41,097 nt of DNA from a virus, in IMG/VR virus record IMGVR_UViG_3300042695_000108, positions 1 to 41,097 of that record. One strand, given 5' to 3'. Position numbers and translations under genes: made by a program. Position 1 is the first letter of the stretch; each line of letters starts with the position of its first letter. The notes below the pieces were generated by a model. It had not been told where the DNA came from. It saw only the letters and a program-made list of their open reading frames with translations, and did not search any database. Positions 1 through 41,097 of this stretch are shown here, piece by piece.

Positions 1-127
1 ATCAGTACTCGAAAGTTAGGATTCCTACATACCTGCCACGTCACATAGTCCACAGTGATCGTGATGGATTTGGCGTGGTTGGGAGGAATGTTAATCAAAA
101 TACGGTTGGCCGCAAGGCCAGGTTCAA
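1..127. repeat. Terminal direct repeat, left copy
   Basis: Bases 1-127 are identical to 40971-41097. An exact 127-base overlap is what an assembler using k=127 leaves at the ends of a circular contig, so it most likely marks circularity (a circular or circularly permuted molecule) and is not a biological terminal repeat. The terminase reading frame passes through it without a break. A true short terminal repeat of the same length cannot be excluded from sequence alone. Confidence 0.95.
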
Positions 128-4756: not shown

Positions 4757-5030
4757 GAACAAGCGAATCGCCAAGCAATATAGTCGAGCTCTCGGATATA
4801 CGCACAAGCAAACAGCGTGCCTTATCACCTTATGGACCCGTGAGAGTAGGTTTGACCACCTCGCTAAGAACCGACAAGGATCCTCAGCTTTCGGAATTGC
4901 TCAACTCCTTAGAGAGCGCAGTCGAGAGCCTTCAATTCAAATCCTTCACGGTATACGATACATTGGTCATCGCTATCGAGGAGATGCGTGCCTTGCTCTC
5001 CAACATTCTAACCGAAGAGGGTGGTACTGA
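4608..5030 (+). CDS. Membrane-anchored SLT-type transglycosylase
   Basis: 140 residues. Residues 8-22 form an N-terminal hydrophobic anchor or uncleaved signal; the rest matches the short SLT-like muralytic domain common in actinobacteria and their phages: catalytic Glu at 79 in LWTRESRF, the turn GSSAFGIAQL, the GIRYI helix and a closing GWY. It should cleave glycan strands of peptidoglycan on the outer face of the membrane. It starts inside the gene at 4457 (GGAG ten bases upstream) and its stop overlaps the methyltransferase ATG (TGATG). It lies in the early unit, so it may serve entry, superinfection exclusion or lysis. A further ORF overlaps its 3' two thirds. Confidence 0.75.
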   Translation: MNRWVRNGLILTVILVSLWILTPIHHLRVEESASKPAPVQTKATMEEKRENKRIAKQYSRALGYTHKQTACLITLWTRESRFDHLAKNRQGSSAFGIAQLLRERSREPSIQILHGIRYIGHRYRGDACLALQHSNRRGWY

Positions 5031-5046
5031 TGCTGACTGGAGTTAG
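4753..5046 (+). CDS. Overlapping ORF inside the muralytic gene
   Basis: 97 residues in a third frame, overlapping the SLT gene for 278 nt. It has a textbook ribosome site (GGAGGAGAA) just before its GTG and is coupled to the previous stop. The C-terminal half (residues 45-85) would be amphipathic and helical. Either it is a genuine overprinted gene or a fortuitous frame of the SLT gene; the strong ribosome site favours translation. No family recognised. Confidence 0.45.
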   Translation: MRTSESPSNIVELSDIRTSKQRALSPYGPVRVGLTTSLRTDKDPQLSELLNSLESAVESLQFKSFTVYDTLVIAIEEMRALLSNILTEEGGTDADWS

Positions 5047-5647
5047 TTTATTCGCAGGAGTCGGGGGCTTTGACCTGGCTATGCAGCGACAAGGAGTAAA
5101 AGTCGTTGCCTCGGTAGAGATAGATGCCAAGTGCAACGAGGTGCTAGCTAAGCACTTCCCAGAAGCAACACAATTTACAGATGTAACTACAGTCAAGGGA
5201 GAGGATTTAATAAATGCAGGATTTACACCAAGCACAGGAATTATTACAGGAGGATTTCCCTGCCAAGACCTCAGCGTCGCTGGCAAGAGGGCTGGTCTTG
5301 CTGGCGAAAGAAGCGGGTTATTCTGGGAAATTGCAAGACTTGTGGAAGAAACGCAAACAGAATACTTCGTCATCGAAAACGTCCCTGGTCTGCTATCCAG
5401 TAACAAAGGAAAAGATTTTGGAGTCGTCGTCGGAACGATGGCCGACCTCGGGTATTCTCTTGGATGGAGGGTGCTTGATGCTCAACACTTCGGAGTACCC
5501 CAGCGACGGCGTCGTGTCTTCATCGTTGGCCGACGTTCTATTGACTCAACAAGTCCTGCCGAAATACTATTTAAGTCCAACGGCTTGCGAAGGGATCCTT
5601 CGACGAGCCAACCGACGGGGCAAAGAATTACCGGAAGTACTAACTAA
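5030..5647 (+). CDS. C5-cytosine DNA methyltransferase, N-terminal ORF
   Basis: 205 residues from the ATG at 5030, which overlaps the SLT stop. It carries the catalytic half of a Dcm-type enzyme: motif I FAGVGG (8-13), motif IV GGFPCQDLS with nucleophile Cys78, motif VI ENV (116-118) and motif VIII QRRRRVFIVG (158-167). It lacks the target-recognition region and motifs IX-X, which are in the next ORF (5647-6228) in another frame, joined by TAATG. Together they would form a complete enzyme, as in two-chain methyltransferases such as M.AquI. It may protect phage DNA from restriction. A frameshift mutation or assembly error is the alternative. Confidence 0.9.
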   Translation: MLTGVSLFAGVGGFDLAMQRQGVKVVASVEIDAKCNEVLAKHFPEATQFTDVTTVKGEDLINAGFTPSTGIITGGFPCQDLSVAGKRAGLAGERSGLFWEIARLVEETQTEYFVIENVPGLLSSNKGKDFGVVVGTMADLGYSLGWRVLDAQHFGVPQRRRRVFIVGRRSIDSTSPAEILFKSNGLRRDPSTSQPTGQRITGSTN

Positions 5648-5684
5648 TGCTTTGGTACACCAAATCAAGACGAGCACAGAATAG
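5214..5684 (+). CDS. ORF embedded in the methyltransferase gene
   Basis: 156 residues in the third frame, spanning the junction of the two methyltransferase ORFs. A GGAGAGG site lies nine bases before its ATG. Its sequence reads like a real protein: an Arg-rich C-terminal helix (RRANRRGKELPEVLTNAL) and a preceding segment with STS/Trp and LSPTAC resemble a conserved phage protein that I recall being encoded over dcm-like genes in other phages. Its function is unknown; a role in DNA modification or in the methyltransferase complex is only inferred from position. Confidence 0.6.
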   Translation: MQDLHQAQELLQEDFPAKTSASLARGLVLLAKEAGYSGKLQDLWKKRKQNTSSSKTSLVCYPVTKEKILESSSERWPTSGILLDGGCLMLNTSEYPSDGVVSSSLADVLLTQQVLPKYYLSPTACEGILRRANRRGKELPEVLTNALVHQIKTSTE

Positions 5685-6228
5685 TGAGGACTACGAAACG
5701 TGGGTGGATGGTGGCGTTATGCCCACACTAAATGCTTTTGACAATGGAGATATAAGAACAACAGTCATTATCTTTCACCCTCACTACCACGACGGAGCTA
5801 GAGTACAAGGAGATACTATGAACACTCTTACATCACGTATGGGTACAGGTGGTAACAACGTATCTTGCGTTGCCACTGTGACCACGACGGCAGATGTGGT
5901 TGGATCATTACAAGCAAGAGACTATAAGGGAGTAGGTAATCAGTACGTGGCAGAGAACAAATTAGTAGTTTCATTTGATACGCAGTTTGGATCTAATGCC
6001 ACAACCTTTGAGGATATGTCTCCGACTCTTAAAGCTAGCCAGCAACCACCATCAGTGACTGGTAGTTCAGTACGCCGCCTTACCCCAGTCGAGTGTGAAA
6101 GATTGCAAGGTTTTCCTGATGGTTGGACAGAAGGACAGTCAGACTCTCAACGCTATAAGCAGATGGGAAACGCCGTAGCAGTTCCAGTAGTTGAATGGAT
6201 CATACAAGGTATCTGTGATACTATTTGA
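5647..6228 (+). CDS. C5-cytosine DNA methyltransferase, C-terminal ORF
   Basis: 193 residues; the ATG overlaps the stop of the N-terminal ORF (TAATG). Residues about 20-135 correspond to the variable target-recognition region, with motifs such as TLNAFDNGD and TLTSRMGTGG seen in phage Dcm enzymes. Residues about 142-185 hold motif IX (RRLTPVECERLQGFP) and motif X (QMGNAVAVPVV). Alone it has no catalytic Cys, so it must act with the preceding chain or be fused to it by frameshifting. It is the last gene of the rightward unit. Confidence 0.88.
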   Translation: MLWYTKSRRAQNSEDYETWVDGGVMPTLNAFDNGDIRTTVIIFHPHYHDGARVQGDTMNTLTSRMGTGGNNVSCVATVTTTADVVGSLQARDYKGVGNQYVAENKLVVSFDTQFGSNATTFEDMSPTLKASQQPPSVTGSSVRRLTPVECERLQGFPDGWTEGQSDSQRYKQMGNAVAVPVVEWIIQGICDTI

Positions 6229-9385: not shown

Positions 9386-9539
9386 TGGAGCCTGTATCGT
9401 AGACTGCTTTACCTTCTGCATCGGTAGTTACCTTAAGAATCTTCAGATCTATCAGTACCAGAATAAGGTTACGCATATCGTTACGCAACTGATTGATCTC
9501 ATTCTTCAAGTACTGGATCTCAGTTTGCTGCTTCGACAT
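9378..9539 (-). CDS. Small coiled-coil protein
   Basis: 53 residues from the ATG at 9539, which follows a strong AGGAGG; the upstream ATG at 9560 has no ribosome site. Residues 3-37 form one long amphipathic helix (TEIQYLKNEINQLRNDMRN). It probably oligomerises or serves as an accessory to the neighbouring helicase or nuclease. No family recognised. Confidence 0.65.
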   Translation of the reverse strand: MSKQQTEIQYLKNEINQLRNDMRNLILVLIDLKILKVTTDAEGKAVYDTGSNG

Positions 9540-10380
9540 TGTATCCTCCTGAATACCCATACTGTTGATCTTTCCTAAACATATTACCCCAGACAGGATC
9601 GTCTGTTATCTGACACGCTGCGTAGTTGACGTACAGAGTTGCATAGTCTGATGCGTCAGCAGTGTGTGGTCCAAATCTATTCTTGACCGCAGCAACCTTG
9701 AGGGTTGCCTGGTTGGGATCATAGCCCAGCGTTAGGATCAACGCCGGTAGTTGACTTACCTTACCGTGAATTGCACGTCGTGCTGATGGGTTAGTAGGGT
9801 TGCCATACTCACTTTGCTCGGACACGTGATGTAGCACAAGTACACAAGCCTCAGTCTTACGAGCCATATCGTGAAGCTCCATCATAATCGCACGTAACCC
9901 AGCCCATTCGTTATCAGTCTCAGCTGCAACGTTCATCAGGTTATCTATCACAATTAACTCTGGTGCTATTCCATACAGTTCTATGTAAGCCTTGATCTCT
10001 AACTCAATATCATCTAGCGATGGTGATGAGTCGAAGACCCACTTGATGTGCTTTAACTTATCAAAGTGTTTATCGTAGTGATGAGTGTTCTTGGAAAGAT
10101 TGCCTTCTACTGACAACTGTGTATGACCAGATGTGTGAGCAGCAGCTCTCATCATCACAGTTGTTGTGTCAGTATCGGCTGAAAAGAATAAGGTTGGAAC
10201 TTCTGACTTGATCGCATAGATCAGAGCAAACATAGACTTGCCTGCATTCGGTGCTGCTGCCACCATACATACTTGTCCACGTCTGAATCTGATCTGCTTA
10301 ACCCCTAGAGGTTTCCACACGTCAGGTAGTGGTGTTGCCTTGGTAAGCACACCACCCCAAGCGCGGGATAGATCAAGCAA
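9520..10380 (-). CDS. DnaB-like RecA-fold ATPase (replicative helicase candidate)
   Basis: 286 residues. Walker A AAPNAGKS at 42-49 and Walker B LIVID at 142-146 belong to a RecA/DnaB-type ATPase; LVLHHVSEQ near 200 and the following conserved basic segment fit the AAA_25/DnaB family. It lacks the N-terminal domain of bacterial DnaB, as several phage helicases do. The start is a TTG supported by AAGGAGG six bases upstream and overlaps the WhiB stop. It would unwind the fork with the two-ORF primase. A RecA-like recombinase is less likely. Confidence 0.8.
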   Translation of the reverse strand: MLDLSRAWGGVLTKATPLPDVWKPLGVKQIRFRRGQVCMVAAAPNAGKSMFALIYAIKSEVPTLFFSADTDTTTVMMRAAAHTSGHTQLSVEGNLSKNTHHYDKHFDKLKHIKWVFDSSPSLDDIELEIKAYIELYGIAPELIVIDNLMNVAAETDNEWAGLRAIMMELHDMARKTEACVLVLHHVSEQSEYGNPTNPSARRAIHGKVSQLPALILTLGYDPNQATLKVAAVKNRFGPHTADASDYATLYVNYAACQITDDPVWGNMFRKDQQYGYSGGYNVEAAN

Positions 10381-10639
10381 TTCGTTCCTCCTTAACTGTT
10401 ATCTTTCGTTGACGTCGAATGAACCTGCGTTCACCCTCAGTGATGCCTCCCCAAATGCCGTGACTTTCATTCTGTATTCCCCACTCAGCACACTCTGCCT
10501 TGTGTGGACATCTACCACAGATAGATTTAGCCATTAACATTTCGGTACTATTAGAACTTCCAGCTTCCTTCTCAGGAAACCAGAAATCCCCACCTACACT
10601 TGCACATAACGGAGCCTCGTACTTTGCTGGCTCCCGCAT
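10373..10639 (-). CDS. WhiB-family transcriptional regulator
   Basis: 88 residues from the ATG at 10639, just after the previous stop; a longer frame (to 10735) overlaps the upstream gene. Cys12, Cys41, Cys44 and Cys50 are the iron-sulphur ligands, followed by the hallmark GIWGG (61-65) and a basic tail RRFIRRQRK for DNA contact. WhiB proteins are restricted to actinobacteria and their phages and act by binding the primary sigma factor. Mycobacteriophage WhiB proteins such as TM4 WhiBTM4 repress host whiB2. It is the main evidence for the host group. Confidence 0.95.
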   Translation of the reverse strand: MREPAKYEAPLCASVGGDFWFPEKEAGSSNSTEMLMAKSICGRCPHKAECAEWGIQNESHGIWGGITEGERRFIRRQRKITVKEERIA

Positions 10640-10640
10640 T

Positions 10641-10997
10641 TTATCGGATAAAGATAGGGTCGCACTTGTCCATAGCACCCTTTGGTGCTGAACACATATG
10701 AGCCTTCCAAGGTCCTCGTGCTGATGTTCCTTCACGGTAGTTCATTGCACCGTGACGGCAGGTTGGTGTATCACCGGATACTGGTGTTGCATTAAATGCC
10801 TGGGCAACTGATGCCACTGTTGGTGCTGGTGCAGATCCAACACCTAGTTCGACTGCTGTTGCCTTGATGTTAGCTGCGTTCATTGCGATATCTGCTAGTC
10901 CTGATTCTAGTTCAGCAACTGTTGCAGCATAGAGATTGATAAGTGTTCCATCAGACAACTTGTAGTTGATCTGGAACTTTGTTCCTTCTGTAGCCAT
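10641..10997 (-). CDS. Conserved-looking phage protein with C-terminal zinc site
   Basis: 118 residues. An N-terminal alpha/beta domain (residues 1-60) is joined by an Ala/Pro/Val linker to a C-terminal Cys/His module (CRHG near 79, then HMCSAPKG and a final CDP). The C-terminal pattern is one I associate with actinophage proteins of unknown role near replication genes. It sits between the nuclease and WhiB. DNA binding is plausible but not shown. Confidence 0.7.
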   Translation of the reverse strand: MATEGTKFQINYKLSDGTLINLYAATVAELESGLADIAMNAANIKATAVELGVGSAPAPTVASVAQAFNATPVSGDTPTCRHGAMNYREGTSARGPWKAHMCSAPKGAMDKCDPIFIR

Positions 10998-11954
10998 TTA
11001 GTTTCCTCCACTTGGTTTGATATTGAGTCTTGCTGTTTCCTGTCCAACACTTACTGGGACATAACCAATAAGTTCTTTAACCTTTTCTTTGTCAACTGTC
11101 TCACGACCTTTAACCTTTGTCCAACTGATTTCAATACCACTGGCTGTAACACCAATGGTTCCTTCGAAAGAAGTCTTGATTGAATCTCTTTCAATTTCTA
11201 ACTCTTTAATCTTTGCATCTAATTGTAGAAAGTGCAGTGCATTCTTGTCAACTTCTTCGTCCTCAATAACTACTTCACTAAGGACGATACGTTCTTTTTT
11301 TAAGCCAACACAACCCATCATTCCTGATGCGTCATAGTATTGACAGTAGCTCTTACAGAATGTTGCATCCTTCTCTGGCTCTGGAGCAGTCTCCATTGCC
11401 TTGACTTCAGTTAACCACTCCAAAGCCTCTAGTGCAATATCTTCATCGTAGGGTTCTGAGTGAACCTTGACATCCTTCTCAGCACCATCACGAGCTATAG
11501 CAACCAGATTAACTGTGTTAACTGTGTGGCCATTCTGCGCTAGTAGATATCCATAGATCTGTACCTGCCAACGCTGTTGCTTTGATGGGAAGTAAGAAAG
11601 GTTCTTGACCTTGCTAGTCTTCCAGTCAATGACAGCACCGGTGCTAGGTATAAACAAGTCCACGTGTGCTTTCATATCACCGTGTGATACCTCAGTCTCG
11701 ACAAGGTAATCCTTGCCATCTGGATCTAGGTGTCCGATTGCTTCCTCGATTGCAGCGTGGATAGCAGTACCCATAATCGCTGCAAGTTTAGATTGATCTT
11801 CGTTGGTATGAGGTTGTCCATTCAATCGGTACCAGACCTTACGACGGCAACCACCAATTTCTGATGGACCTACCTGTGTCTGTGTACTGCGATCACGAGT
11901 GGCATCCTTGGCGTGGAGCACTGTTAATAGCAGTTCTTTTGGATCAGTTATCAT
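10998..11954 (-). CDS. Cas4/RecB-type exonuclease with iron-sulphur cysteines
   Basis: 318 residues. The PD-(D/E)XK_1 core is visible: GTAIHAAIEE (His66), HVDLF (Asp99), VIDWKTSK (Asp110, Lys112) and the QVQIYGYLL helix. Four Cys at 36, 200, 204 and 215 match the 4Fe-4S cluster layout of Cas4 and AddB-type nucleases. The C-terminal 90 residues are an extra helical domain. It probably resects or processes DNA ends in replication or recombination. The start overlaps the small gene upstream. No CRISPR array is present, so a Cas4-like role in spacer acquisition is not suggested. Confidence 0.82.
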   Translation of the reverse strand: MITDPKELLLTVLHAKDATRDRSTQTQVGPSEIGGCRRKVWYRLNGQPHTNEDQSKLAAIMGTAIHAAIEEAIGHLDPDGKDYLVETEVSHGDMKAHVDLFIPSTGAVIDWKTSKVKNLSYFPSKQQRWQVQIYGYLLAQNGHTVNTVNLVAIARDGAEKDVKVHSEPYDEDIALEALEWLTEVKAMETAPEPEKDATFCKSYCQYYDASGMMGCVGLKKERIVLSEVVIEDEEVDKNALHFLQLDAKIKELEIERDSIKTSFEGTIGVTASGIEISWTKVKGRETVDKEKVKELIGYVPVSVGQETARLNIKPSGGN

Positions 11955-12060
11955 CTGACTTCTCCATCATCATCTCTAAACGTGCAGCCATATATCCTTG
12001 TTTAAGATAATAGTTAGCTGCATATTCATCAGTCATTGCGATCTTCTTAATCTCTTCCAT
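11944..12060 (-). CDS. Tiny helical protein
   Basis: 38 residues, coupled at both ends: its ATG overlaps the previous stop (TAATG) and its stop overlaps the nuclease start by 11 nt. Helical, with many Met and Glu. Too short for the family to be recognised. Confidence 0.5.
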   Translation of the reverse strand: MEEIKKIAMTDEYAANYYLKQGYMAARLEMMMEKSDDN

Positions 12061-12146
12061 TACTTCTGGTCCCTACGTGTTAGCCAATAATCAAAAGCAT
12101 ACGCTGCTACGAAACCAAGCAGTAATCCAAATGCGAACTTCAACAT
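12060..12146 (-). CDS. Tiny membrane protein
   Basis: 28 residues: one hydrophobic segment (FAFGLLLGFVAAYAF) then a basic tail (LTRRDQK). It starts shortly after the proteasome-like stop, with GAAGAAG upstream. Unknown function. Confidence 0.5.
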   Translation of the reverse strand: MLKFAFGLLLGFVAAYAFDYWLTRRDQK

Positions 12147-12151
12147 CTTCT

Positions 12152-12706
12152 TCACCCTTTCTCCTGAGTAACTAATTGAATCGGAGGACAGGTGTTCACG
12201 TCAAGTACCGACGCGATCTTTACTGCCCTTTCTGCTACCACCTTAGCCATCAGCAAAGACTTGCACGTTCCAGGCTTGAGCGAGTAGAGATAACCCAGAG
12301 CATAATCTCCACCACTACCGGCTGTAAAGAGTCCACGTTCACTGGCGTTAAATGATAGATCTGATCCGATAGAAAACAACATCCCATCAAATGCTAGAAG
12401 GTAGGCAAAGCTGGCTTCCTTGTCAGATGGATCGTAACCATTATCTTTGAATGCAGCAAAGATACTAGGCAGTATCTTCTTACCCATCCACTCGACAGGA
12501 TCGTAGTTCTTATACGTTGGTGGTTTCCAGTTGTAGGCAAGGATATCTCCTGGCCGTGAGTCACCAGTAATACCTAGTAGGTAGTTGCCGATGTGAATAA
12601 TCTTGGGCGTCTGGGTAGATATGATGCGCTGATCGTTGTCGGTGATCTGTGAGTCAGCTGCCATCACAACGAAGTCAGGTCCTTGGATACCAACGAGAGT
12701 TGTCAT
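12152..12706 (-). CDS. Proteasome beta/HslV-like Ntn hydrolase
   Basis: 184 residues. After Met removal Thr2 would be the N-terminal nucleophile (TTLVGI as in proteasome beta subunits). Asp18 matches Asp17, Lys35 matches Lys33 with a one-residue insertion, AGSGGDYALG holds the Gly-Ser-Gly element, and LDVNT near 171-175 matches the Asp-x-x-Ser/Thr site. The fold and active site point to a threonine peptidase; no processed propeptide is seen. It is the first gene of the replication unit and appears leaderless. Its role is unknown: it could mimic, join or interfere with host proteasome-type proteolysis. Confidence 0.82.
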   Translation of the reverse strand: MTTLVGIQGPDFVVMAADSQITDNDQRIISTQTPKIIHIGNYLLGITGDSRPGDILAYNWKPPTYKNYDPVEWMGKKILPSIFAAFKDNGYDPSDKEASFAYLLAFDGMLFSIGSDLSFNASERGLFTAGSGGDYALGYLYSLKPGTCKSLLMAKVVAERAVKIASVLDVNTCPPIQLVTQEKG

Positions 12707-12712
12707 TGGTGG

Positions 12713-12731
12713 AGTATATCACACGGCGTGT
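12713..12731 (-). promoter_or_regulatory. Leaderless promoter with palindromic operator for replication operon
   Basis: On the minus strand TGATATACT (12713-12721) is an extended -10 ending six bases before the ATG at 12706, with no ribosome site, so the transcript probably begins at the start codon. The palindrome ACACGGCGTGT (12721-12731) lies just upstream of and touching it, and the 11-mer ACGCCGTGTGA is shared with the promoter at 1020-1050. Confidence 0.65.
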
Positions 12732-12742
12732 CTTGCATTCTT

Positions 12743-12858
12743 AATGGTGGGTTAAATGTACAATATGAGCGTAAGCGAATAACGGTAAGCGGCCCCTATG
12801 CGGGGCCGAGGCTGAAAGCCGAGAGGCGACTGACCACAGGAAGGAGCCGTGCCGGACA
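12743..12858 (+). ncRNA. Possible structured leader RNA
   Basis: This stretch begins with the 14-base motif shared with 799-812, has a TACAAT -10-like hexamer at 12759, then a strong hairpin CGGCCCC-TATGC-GGGGCCG (12790-12808) and a second, GGCT-GAA-AGCC (12810-12820), before AAGGAG and the following gene. Compact hairpins with small loops suggest a structured RNA leader. No known RNA class was recognised. Confidence 0.35.
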
Positions 12859-37153: not shown

Positions 37154-38917
37154 TTATGCTGCGCCAGTGATACCGGCTAGTAGTTGTGCTATATCGGGAC
37201 GTTGACCAGCAGCAGGGGCCTGACCAGCTTGTTCTTGTGGAGGTTGCTGCGAGGCAGGAGCTAGGGCCTCACCTGCTGCTGGAACTTGAGGTGCCATTCC
37301 TGGCATACCCATCTCTGGGGCCATTGGCGCTGGTGGAGGTGGTTCTGGTGCGAACGCTTTCTCCACGATTGACTCTAACGATAATCCCTTTTGACGTCCC
37401 GCAATGACTTCAGCAATGCGAGTAACAGCCAAGGAAGGATCCTGACCTTGCGATGCCAACGCAGGGATGGTTTGAGCGTACTGAGCAACAGCGATACGTA
37501 GAGAGTCGCGTAACTCTTCGATATCAACTCGTTGCTCTTCTTGGGTAACATTAATCTCCACCGGTAATTCACGGCGTACATAGTCGCGGGATACAAGTTT
37601 ATCTGAACGCATTTGTAGTAATGCGATAACTGCACGGTTAGGGTCCATACCGGACATAATTCCGTAGCGTACATCTACTCCGTACTCACCCTTGATGTCG
37701 CGTGATGGGATGTACTTGAGTGTGTAAGGTGTACCGTCATCGGTTCCCTTAATTGTCTTCTGAATAGATCCAAAGATCTTCTCATCTACTTCAAAGCAAA
37801 GACCGATAAGATCTTCAAAGAGGCGTGCAAACTGTGCCTGTGCTGCCTTGATCTGTGTATCAAAACCAGCCTGTAGTGCCTGAACACCACGTCCTGTAAC
37901 GATTGATGCGTTGATCTCACCTGAACGTGACTCTGGGTAACGAGCACCAAGGCGTAGTTCACGCTCTAGCACACCTGATTCAGTAAAGATTCCAGGTGGT
38001 AGTTCTAGTCCAACACGGCGAATAGATTGTGGATTAGCAGAACGCATAATAGCGTCAGGTCCCAAAGCAAGTTCTTGCACATCTTGTGGAATAGCAATAG
38101 GTGCTTGGATTGACTTCTCAGCTGCTTGGATCTGCAAGATAGCAAATCGAGCACGTGCAAGCTGTACTGCTAGTACATCATCGAACTGACCACGTGCCTG
38201 CTCATCTAGTGATGGACGGATATAGACACGTGCTAAGCACTTACCTACTGGGTTTGGTACACGTGATAGGACAAGATTGTTACGCTGTGGCAGATAGATT
38301 AGATCTTGCTCTGCATCGTGGTAACGCACGATAGTCATATAAGGAGATCCTGGTTGGAAGTTATTCTTCTTGAGGATCGCTTCTGCAAACTCTGGGTATT
38401 GTGCTGCGATTGTGTCAGCGTCAGATACGATCAACTGTGATAGCGAAAGTGTGCGACCAAAGCGATCCATCTCTGGGTAGCAACCGGTTGGATCAAGTAG
38501 GCGCATACGAGGGTTGTTATCCTCATAGTCCATCTCCACCATACCGATAGTCATACCGTAGGTGTTGTACCAGTCGGCATTCTTGTAGTTCTGTAGTGAA
38601 AGGTTAGAATATGAAACGTAGTAGTTAGCGATTCGAGTGCGGGTGTCAGCTGCCTTACGCTGTGCATCAGAAACCATATTGTTTGCTGAGCAGTTAAACG
38701 AAGGTAGCGGAGCACCCGCCTCGGCCAAGTCACGTGCTGCTACATCAATGAAGTTAGCAACGAGTGGCTTTGGGTAATCCTCGGAGAACATTGATGGGAA
38801 AACTTTAGACAAGTCTCCCTGACGTACAGAAAGAACGTCGCGCATACGTTGGTCGCGTGGAGCGTACTTGGTACGCAAACGCGCTAGTTTCGCGTCAATC
38901 TCTTTAACTGATAACAA
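37154..38917 (-). CDS. Portal protein
   Basis: 587 residues. The fold of phage portals is suggested by the long helical core (for example VQLARARFAILQIQAAEKSI), a region with TGRGVQALQAGFDTQIKAAQ before a helix of LFEDLIGLCFEVDEKI, and the Pro/Gln/Ala-rich C-terminal tail. It lies directly after terminase and a basic protein, as expected. Dodecameric ring at one capsid vertex. The start is a TTG after AGGAG (38917). Confidence 0.88.
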   Translation of the reverse strand: MLSVKEIDAKLARLRTKYAPRDQRMRDVLSVRQGDLSKVFPSMFSEDYPKPLVANFIDVAARDLAEAGAPLPSFNCSANNMVSDAQRKAADTRTRIANYYVSYSNLSLQNYKNADWYNTYGMTIGMVEMDYEDNNPRMRLLDPTGCYPEMDRFGRTLSLSQLIVSDADTIAAQYPEFAEAILKKNNFQPGSPYMTIVRYHDAEQDLIYLPQRNNLVLSRVPNPVGKCLARVYIRPSLDEQARGQFDDVLAVQLARARFAILQIQAAEKSIQAPIAIPQDVQELALGPDAIMRSANPQSIRRVGLELPPGIFTESGVLERELRLGARYPESRSGEINASIVTGRGVQALQAGFDTQIKAAQAQFARLFEDLIGLCFEVDEKIFGSIQKTIKGTDDGTPYTLKYIPSRDIKGEYGVDVRYGIMSGMDPNRAVIALLQMRSDKLVSRDYVRRELPVEINVTQEEQRVDIEELRDSLRIAVAQYAQTIPALASQGQDPSLAVTRIAEVIAGRQKGLSLESIVEKAFAPEPPPPAPMAPEMGMPGMAPQVPAAGEALAPASQQPPQEQAGQAPAAGQRPDIAQLLAGITGAA

Positions 38918-39565: not shown

Positions 39566-41097
39566 TTAGATGAATGTTTTATTTTGTTCTGCGAATAGTT
39601 CATCTAAGTTGACGACTATTCTTTTGCCTAGTTCTTTCCTAGACAAAAACGGATTCTTCATATGATGGGTAGCGTACTGCCCGTAGTTGAGCATCTCACG
39701 TGCTCGGATCTCACAGAACCATAGAGCCATCACTAAGTCCGTCTTGCCTTTAGTGGTGGGGGTCCACGTAATTAACTGCTCGATCAGTGCCTTGACATTT
39801 TCAGTCTGGTCACTAGGTAGATGAATAAGATTGTCGCGGTGGTGCTTACCATCGGATTGCTTAGTACCAAAGAGCGTAGCCATAGAAGCTACACCAAAGC
39901 CTGCATCCCACTTGTTAGAACCAGTGTGGTGTTCTTTAAGTAGAACGCCTCGTGAGGCAAGGTGCTGCCGGATTCCTTCATCTTGGGTAAGGAAGGCTTG
40001 GAAAGCATTCTTCTCTACGATCCATTCTGACGGTCCGTAAAGGGAAGTCCAACTAAATATCAGTTCTCGGATCTGCGCCGGAGATGGACCAGTGATCTTG
40101 ATAGCATCAACAATGTAACGTTTAGAGGTACTTCGATCAATAGCATAGCAGATCGCAGCAGTATCACCGACCATAGCAGGATCAAGACCACAGATAATAC
40201 TAAAGCCCGAAAGATCTTTTGGATGACCTGGATAACCTGGTTCAAGACGACCTGCTTTTCTCATACCGTCAATAGAACCTTTAACACATACTGGGTCAAA
40301 GGCAGCGTTTTCAGATATGTCTTGTTGTTGATAAACTAGCGCCCAGGTGGATGAGTCCATCGCTTGGCGTTCGTTGTAAAGGTTGCGTCCTGACCAACGT
40401 GGGTAGAGGCCGTCTTCGTTCTTATCAGATTCTTCTTGTCCATCAAATGGAGCATCAGAGGCTGGCCATAAGGTAACCCATTTATCTGGGTCCTCATCTA
40501 TCTCCAGCAGAGCTGGCATAGCCAAATACTTCCAAGGAACTAGCCCACCTGGGTAGCGATCTTCAGAACGTAGCTCGCGGTAGAGATCTACCGAGGCTAC
40601 ACGTGTTCCAATAACGATCAACTTACCTGTAGGGTTCAAACGAGATCGCACGTCCTGGGTCAACCAGCGGATCTGCTTTTCAAACTCGTTGGCATTCTTT
40701 AAAGTAACCGCGTCGTCTACAATAATCATATCTGCACGCTTACCGTAGATCTGACCACCGATACCGACGGCTTCGATGTTCGGGTCCTTTTCAGATGACT
40801 CACGGAGTTCATCACCAAAAGTGACACGGGTTGCCTGCCACGAAGCAGTCTTAGAGTTAAACCCTACGCCAGCAGCATACGCAGTCTGTAACTCTTGATA
40901 CATTGGGTGCGTCAGACGTTGCTTGATGGCGTAGAGAAAGTCGGCAGCTAACTGCTGCGTTTGGGATACGATCAGTACTCGAAAGTTAGGATTCCTACAT
41001 ACCTGCCACGTCACATAGTCCACAGTGATCGTGATGGATTTGGCGTGGTTGGGAGGAATGTTAATCAAAATACGGTTGGCCGCAAGGCCAGGTTCAA
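39566..41097 (-). CDS. terL: Terminase large subunit, main part (begins at 1-455)
   Basis: The remaining part of terminase, read from the end repeat leftward; 40971-41097 duplicates 1-127. Numbered in the joined 619-residue protein: Walker A-like INIPPNHAKS near 121-130, Walker B MIIVDDA near 233-239, coupling motif GTR near 273-275, and the RNase H-like nuclease starting at ICGLDPA (Asp about 415). It cuts and packages concatemeric DNA. Packaging strategy (cos, pac or terminal repeat) cannot be told from here. Confidence 0.95.
   Translation of the reverse strand, partial: EPGLAANRILINIPPNHAKSITITVDYVTWQVCRNPNFRVLIVSQTQQLAADFLYAIKQRLTHPMYQELQTAYAAGVGFNSKTASWQATRVTFGDELRESSEKDPNIEAVGIGGQIYGKRADMIIVDDAVTLKNANEFEKQIRWLTQDVRSRLNPTGKLIVIGTRVASVDLYRELRSEDRYPGGLVPWKYLAMPALLEIDEDPDKWVTLWPASDAPFDGQEESDKNEDGLYPRWSGRNLYNERQAMDSSTWALVYQQQDISENAAFDPVCVKGSIDGMRKAGRLEPGYPGHPKDLSGFSIICGLDPAMVGDTAAICYAIDRSTSKRYIVDAIKITGPSPAQIRELIFSWTSLYGPSEWIVEKNAFQAFLTQDEGIRQHLASRGVLLKEHHTGSNKWDAGFGVASMATLFGTKQSDGKHHRDNLIHLPSDQTENVKALIEQLITWTPTTKGKTDLVMALWFCEIRAREMLNYGQYATHHMKNPFLSRKELGKRIVVNLDELFAEQNKTFI
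40971..41097. repeat. Terminal direct repeat, right copy
   Basis: Identical to 1-127; see the left copy. Remove one copy to obtain the circular sequence of about 40,970 bases. Confidence 0.95.

Follow-up and report, generated by a model that had tools for sequence, protein, structure and literature searches.

The closest described relative of the protein studied here, by profile and by fold, is BPH, the beta-proteobacterial proteasome homolog (5ovs/5ovu). BPH is propeptide-free with an exposed active-site Thr, forms a double heptamer ring (tetradecamer) and has no known unfoldase (PMC5777263; PMC8665760), and it showed no activity on peptides or casein (PMC5777263). In 2021 Fuchs et al. listed PPH and AAH homologs from phages, without a function, and no AAH was reported from any Actinobacteria-specific phage (PMC8665760). 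Phage E7 and its sister F5 (OX376640, OX376641) are in culture and infect 'Ca. Planktophila' of the order 'Ca. Nanopelagicales', and the paper describing them mentions phage genes for host-protein degradation in general terms only (PMC10202952). The literature searched contained no experimental work on group I homologs from phages.

We analysed a stretch of viral DNA of 41,097 nucleotides (IMG/VR record IMGVR_UViG_3300042695_000108), referred to here as the window. Because it ends in an exact 127-bp terminal repeat, the window of about 41 kb appears from its sequence to be a complete genome. The features discussed are as follows.

1..127 = 40971..41097, no strand: exact direct repeat of 127 bp, terminal redundancy
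9520..10380, minus strand: DnaB-like helicase of the replication unit, a RecA-type ATPase and not an unfoldase
10373..10735, minus strand: WhiB-like regulator, an actinophage marker
10998..11954, minus strand: PD-(D/E)XK/Cas4-like exonuclease, the next large gene of the replication unit and the synteny anchor
11944..12060, minus strand: small ORF of 38 aa between microprotein and exonuclease, variable in relatives
12060..12146, minus strand: predicted single-span membrane microprotein of 28 aa, MLKFAFGLLLGFVAAYAFDYWLTRRDQK
12152..12706, minus strand: Ntn (threonine) hydrolase of 184 aa, proteasome-like group I by Pfam, PHROGs, profile and AlphaFold2 (AF2) model; Thr codon at 12701-12703
12713..12718, minus strand: -10 element TATACT of the probable leaderless promoter, 6 nt before the ATG, following the family pattern
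12722..12732, minus strand: conserved GACACGCCGTG, partly palindromic ACACGCCGTGT, just 5' of the -10 element, a possible operator
37154..38917, minus strand: portal; followed directly by the Ntn gene in E7-type relatives but not in the window

More than 20 proteins are common to the window genome and phage E7, and the WhiB, sigma factor and glycosyltransferase genes are as in E7/F5. The window portal also resembles the portals of Streptomyces Beephvirinae phages. Judged from this kinship, the portal resemblance and the three shared genes, the host is very probably an actinobacterium of the Nanopelagicales.

The ORF at 12152-12706 is real. It lies on the minus strand, which the preliminary description had not given, starts with ATG and encodes 184 aa beginning MTTLVGIQGPDFVVMAADSQ. 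The product matched Pfam PF00227 (Proteasome) with an E value of 1.1e-7 and 32.1 bits against a cut-off of 22.4, and matched PHROG_1040, 'peptidase HslV family', over its full length with an E value of 7.5e-23. A profile of 62 sequences (relatives) searched against solved structures found BPH (5ovu, E 5e-13) and HslV (E 8e-12). AlphaFold2 modelled the protein with a pLDDT of 91 and a pTM of 0.87, and a Foldseek search with this model again returned BPH at the top (5ovs, E 1e-11, TM 0.74-0.75), followed among solved folds by HslV and 20S beta subunits, while phage proteins in BFVD fit the model better than solved structures do. The model has the alpha-beta-beta-alpha fold of the proteasome-like (Ntn) superfamily with N-terminal Thr, Asp17, Lys33 and Gly47. 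It is compact, with four helices and a last strand at 176-182, without insertions and without the C-terminal S12/H5 elements, and lies nearer to HslV/BPH than to Anbu, as in group I of Fuchs et al. (HslV/BPH/AAH/CPH/PPH). Defence-system libraries gave zero matches to the protein.

After Met removal the catalytic positions are in place at T1, D17, K34, G47, S130, D168 and T171 (proteasome numbers 33 for K34, 129 for S130, 166 for D168 and S169 for T171). T1, D17 and K34 did not vary in 184 distinct relatives and the window protein, and G47 was kept in 98% of the 184 distinct sequences. The median dN/dS was about 0.10, that is, synonymous changes were tenfold over others, indicating purifying selection. 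By its residues the active site is catalytically intact. Pfam, PHROG, profile search, predicted structure, invariant residues and dN/dS agree far beyond chance and confirm, at the level of sequence and model, that the product is an Ntn hydrolase of the proteasome-like family. The fold and main catalytic positions had been proposed in the preliminary description, which named a structure without an Ntn fold as grounds for dropping the idea; the predicted structure bore the proposal out.

The protein is like BPH in its Thr1/Asp17/Lys33 set and in lacking a propeptide, and probably in having no dedicated unfoldase, none being seen among the PHROG results and 25 of the 40 Pfam families of the window ORFs. 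BPH differs in being cellular and about 20% identical, the phage protein being known here from sequence and model, and in the tree the two did not group closely, BPH being a long branch. HslV has the same fold and active-site layout and short pieces of the phage protein match HslV models, but the score against TIGR03692 was 26.2 bits compared to a cut-off of 157.75. The 20S beta model TIGR03690 (PrcB) gave no match at E<=1, there is no propeptide, and Mycobacterium PrcB was absent from the best 60 solved chains in the profile search. With its 184 aa and four helices the phage protein falls outside PPH, whose members have about 140 aa and no helix H2. Neither the H5 coiled coil nor a connectase-type helical insertion was found in the AF2 model, which sets it apart from Anbu and connectase. 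The PHROG_1040 phage HslV-like proteins, which include AAH and PPH, are matched full-length, come from tailed phages and have no AAA+ partner. AAH-like proteins of rhizobia, Bacillus and phages mostly start with MTC and lack the D166/S169-like pair, whereas the window protein starts with MTT and keeps a D..T pair.

Relatives were found in hundreds of viral contigs and in 29 GenBank phage records. Some are annotated in GenBank as 'protease' or 'ATP-dependent protease subunit' in actinobacterial phages (DSL-LC01, Pumpernickel, Pitbull), and others come from phages that infect Vibrio, Aeromonas and Bacillus relatives. The enzyme belongs to a known, biochemically unstudied family of which PHROG_1040, PPH and AAH have already been described, so that calling it the most unusual enzyme in the window, as had been done, was an overstatement given these numbers and the 2021 catalogue (PMC8665760). 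In the phylogenetic tree the window and E7 forms were sisters (83/92) within an actinophage-rich clade starting MTT, apart from an MTC clade of rhizobial, Streptomyces and Bacillus plasmid homologs (100/98); the rhizobial and Streptomyces plasmid homologs are presumed AAH, a label that is our own assignment. The root of the tree is unsure because HslV and BPH form long branches. The separation from the rhizobial AAH-like proteins is new, and the clade holds hundreds of viral loci where the 2021 survey had no example from an Actinobacteria-specific phage. An AAH-like homolog is common on rhizobial symbiotic-type plasmids, and on Sinorhizobium fredii plasmid pSfreGR64b (L390) it is part of a nitrogen-fixation cluster, with nifQ on one side and iron-sulfur assembly/nifS genes on the other.

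The position of the gene was assessed across relatives; some contigs enter the locus counts twice, so that not every locus is independent. In the window group and the sister group the exonuclease was within 4 ORFs downstream of the Ntn gene at 184/184 readable loci and the portal was never upstream (0/198). The Ntn gene was first in the replication unit in every readable relative of both groups, as had been described for the window. The E7/F5 protein is 33% identical and comes from the same genome type, with more than 20 homologous genes and a single copy, but its gene belongs to the late module and does not open the replication unit: at 79 of 81 readable E7-group loci the Ntn gene directly followed the portal, and it was never beside the exonuclease. 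Exactly one Ntn copy was present in 21/21 long records. As these had been picked via the Ntn gene and were a biased sample, the family was resampled through the portal, and one copy was found in 10 of 15 records, including all 8 over 31 kb. The five records without it also lacked the neighbouring exonuclease and so end before the locus. Every informative record of the phage family therefore has exactly one copy of the gene, in one or the other of two fixed places, and a terminally redundant E7/F5-related genome with this arrangement is new.

In the window, TATACT ends 6 nt 5' of the ATG and a Shine-Dalgarno sequence is absent. A -10 element ending 6-8 nt 5' of the start was present in 86 of 89 distinct window-type upstreams compared to about 10% of shuffles. 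Because the -10 element sits at this distance and Shine-Dalgarno sequences are mostly missing from window-type upstreams, the window-type mRNA is very likely leaderless, in agreement with the preliminary description. The -10 element pins the start of the gene and leaves no propeptide. E7-type Ntn genes are operon-internal and half have a recognisable Shine-Dalgarno sequence. The GACACGCCG element 5' of the -10 is conserved. As a genome-wide promoter motif the GACACGCCGTG palindrome was rejected, since it has a single copy in the genome. In three related haplotypes (L008/L085, L049/L122, L108/L109/L111) an HNH endonuclease ORF is inserted exactly at the Ntn start codon and captures both the ATG and the leaderless promoter, leaving the Ntn frame to open with ATC or ATA, as putative starts, after a new GGAG-type Shine-Dalgarno sequence. 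A group I intron had been a candidate for this insert and was rejected, the insert being an HNH ORF.

From homology, predicted fold, catalytic invariance, purifying selection, single copy, promoter architecture and operon, we infer Met removal, a ring, proteolysis, its timing and its substrates as follows, and give a probability of about 0.6 to a propeptide-free BPH/HslV-type peptidase ring that works without its own unfoldase inside the infected cell. A leaderless mRNA would yield a protein with Met directly before Thr, and since Met directly precedes Thr, host methionine aminopeptidase could expose the Thr1 nucleophile with no propeptide needed, as had been suggested. The subunits would then most likely build a single or double homo-oligomeric ring with inner Thr residues; the proposal that the subunit makes a ring of its own is plausible, given its homology to BPH and HslV. 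The inner Thr residues would cut unfolded or short polypeptides. Action without a dedicated AAA+ unfoldase is proposed because none was found in the phage genome: HslU, ClpX and Mpa models were not seen for other window ORFs among the PHROG results and 25 of the 40 Pfam families matched by window ORFs. In the infected cell the enzyme might recycle amino acids from host protein or remove particular host or phage proteins, possibly with the membrane microprotein as partner or regulator. As BPH is inert on peptides and casein, the natural substrate may, by analogy, be special or the reaction other than proteolysis.

That last point leads to a reading in which the protein is a specific amidohydrolase, acylase or protein ligase, with connectase-like chemistry or a small-molecule target, and not a peptidase. 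The versatility of Ntn folds, the ligase connectase and the inertness of BPH on peptides (PMC8665760, PMC5777263) speak for it, but the compact four-helix group I architecture has no connectase insertion and the group I members with known activity are ring proteases, and we regard this chemistry as improbable. We also think it unlikely that the enzyme is the virion maturation protease of the phage family, processing prohead or internal proteins. The E7-type gene order would suit such a task, as the place after the portal is the usual one for a prohead protease, and could point to a structural role there; the gene is single-copy throughout the informative family records, and the head genes that were scanned gave no other recognisable prohead protease. 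Heading the replication unit from its own leaderless promoter, as the gene does in the window group, argues against virion maturation, and so do the distant relatives that sit among nucleotide-metabolism genes in unrelated phages. Streptomyces phage WRightOn, which has a homologous portal, gave no Ntn match with a model whose positive matches, in 21/21 other records, came from separate scans; this also speaks against it.

The preliminary description had raised the idea that the subunit poisons the host proteasome by mixing into its assembly, and a proteasome-like subunit in a phage very likely infecting an actinobacterium makes co-assembly with a host 20S proteasome an obvious thought. The protein scores with BPH/HslV while the PrcB model gives nothing, and the invariant active site counts against a decoy because a pure inhibitor needs no catalysis. 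Relatives are also carried by phages infecting Vibrio, Aeromonas and Bacillus relatives, hosts that to our knowledge have no 20S proteasome. Together these leave poisoning highly improbable. The literature searches returned nothing on the proteasome content of Nanopelagicales, and a scan of genome contigs gave one match, a betaproteobacterial BPH. For the peptidase ring favoured here, and for any other role of a viral proteasome homolog, the question is directly testable because E7 and F5 are cultured with a cultured host; the order infected by these cultured relatives, 'Ca. Nanopelagicales', is abundant in freshwater. The position switch and the conserved microprotein are concrete leads.

The microprotein follows the Ntn gene in 118 of 119 window-group loci (46 distinct sequences), a new observation. 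It is hydrophobic, 28-32 aa long and predicted to span the membrane once, with the consensus MLxFLFGLLxGFVxAYAxDYxLTxRDxx. It comes directly after the Ntn stop codon (-13 to +5 nt) in the window group, and in the window an alternative GTG start at 12155 overlaps that stop codon. In the sister group an unrelated hydrophobic protein of 59-66 aa was found in 77 of 80 loci (37 distinct sequences). In the E7 group 76 of 78 loci matched neither hydrophobic-protein pattern and two matched loosely; the next gene in E7/F5 differs, encoding an 84-aa acidic protein and not a membrane microprotein. The microprotein after the Ntn gene hints at a membrane link. A more elaborate version of the peptidase ring would be a two-gene cassette, in which a co-translated microprotein recruits the ring to the membrane or controls it there, for unfoldase-free degradation needed family-wide. 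This version takes in both the 28-31 aa microprotein of the window group and the unrelated 59-66 aa protein of the sister group, and we hold it to be quite unlikely.

Several smaller observations were made. In two Vibrio phages (L074, L078) a polypeptide deformylase gene lies 1-2 genes upstream of the Ntn hydrolase and could help expose Thr1. The divergent zinc-ribbon/HNH genes have a conserved structured leader (window 12759-12858, plus strand) with two hairpins (GCC/GGC and GGCCC/GGGCC) that show paired changes and, in some lineages, loss of one pair; no Rfam family reached its gathering score anywhere in the window, and the matches in this leader were at chance level. A C5-cytosine methyltransferase is split over two adjacent ORFs (window 5021-6228, plus strand), and the same split occurs in relatives L105, L112, L121, L139 and L261.
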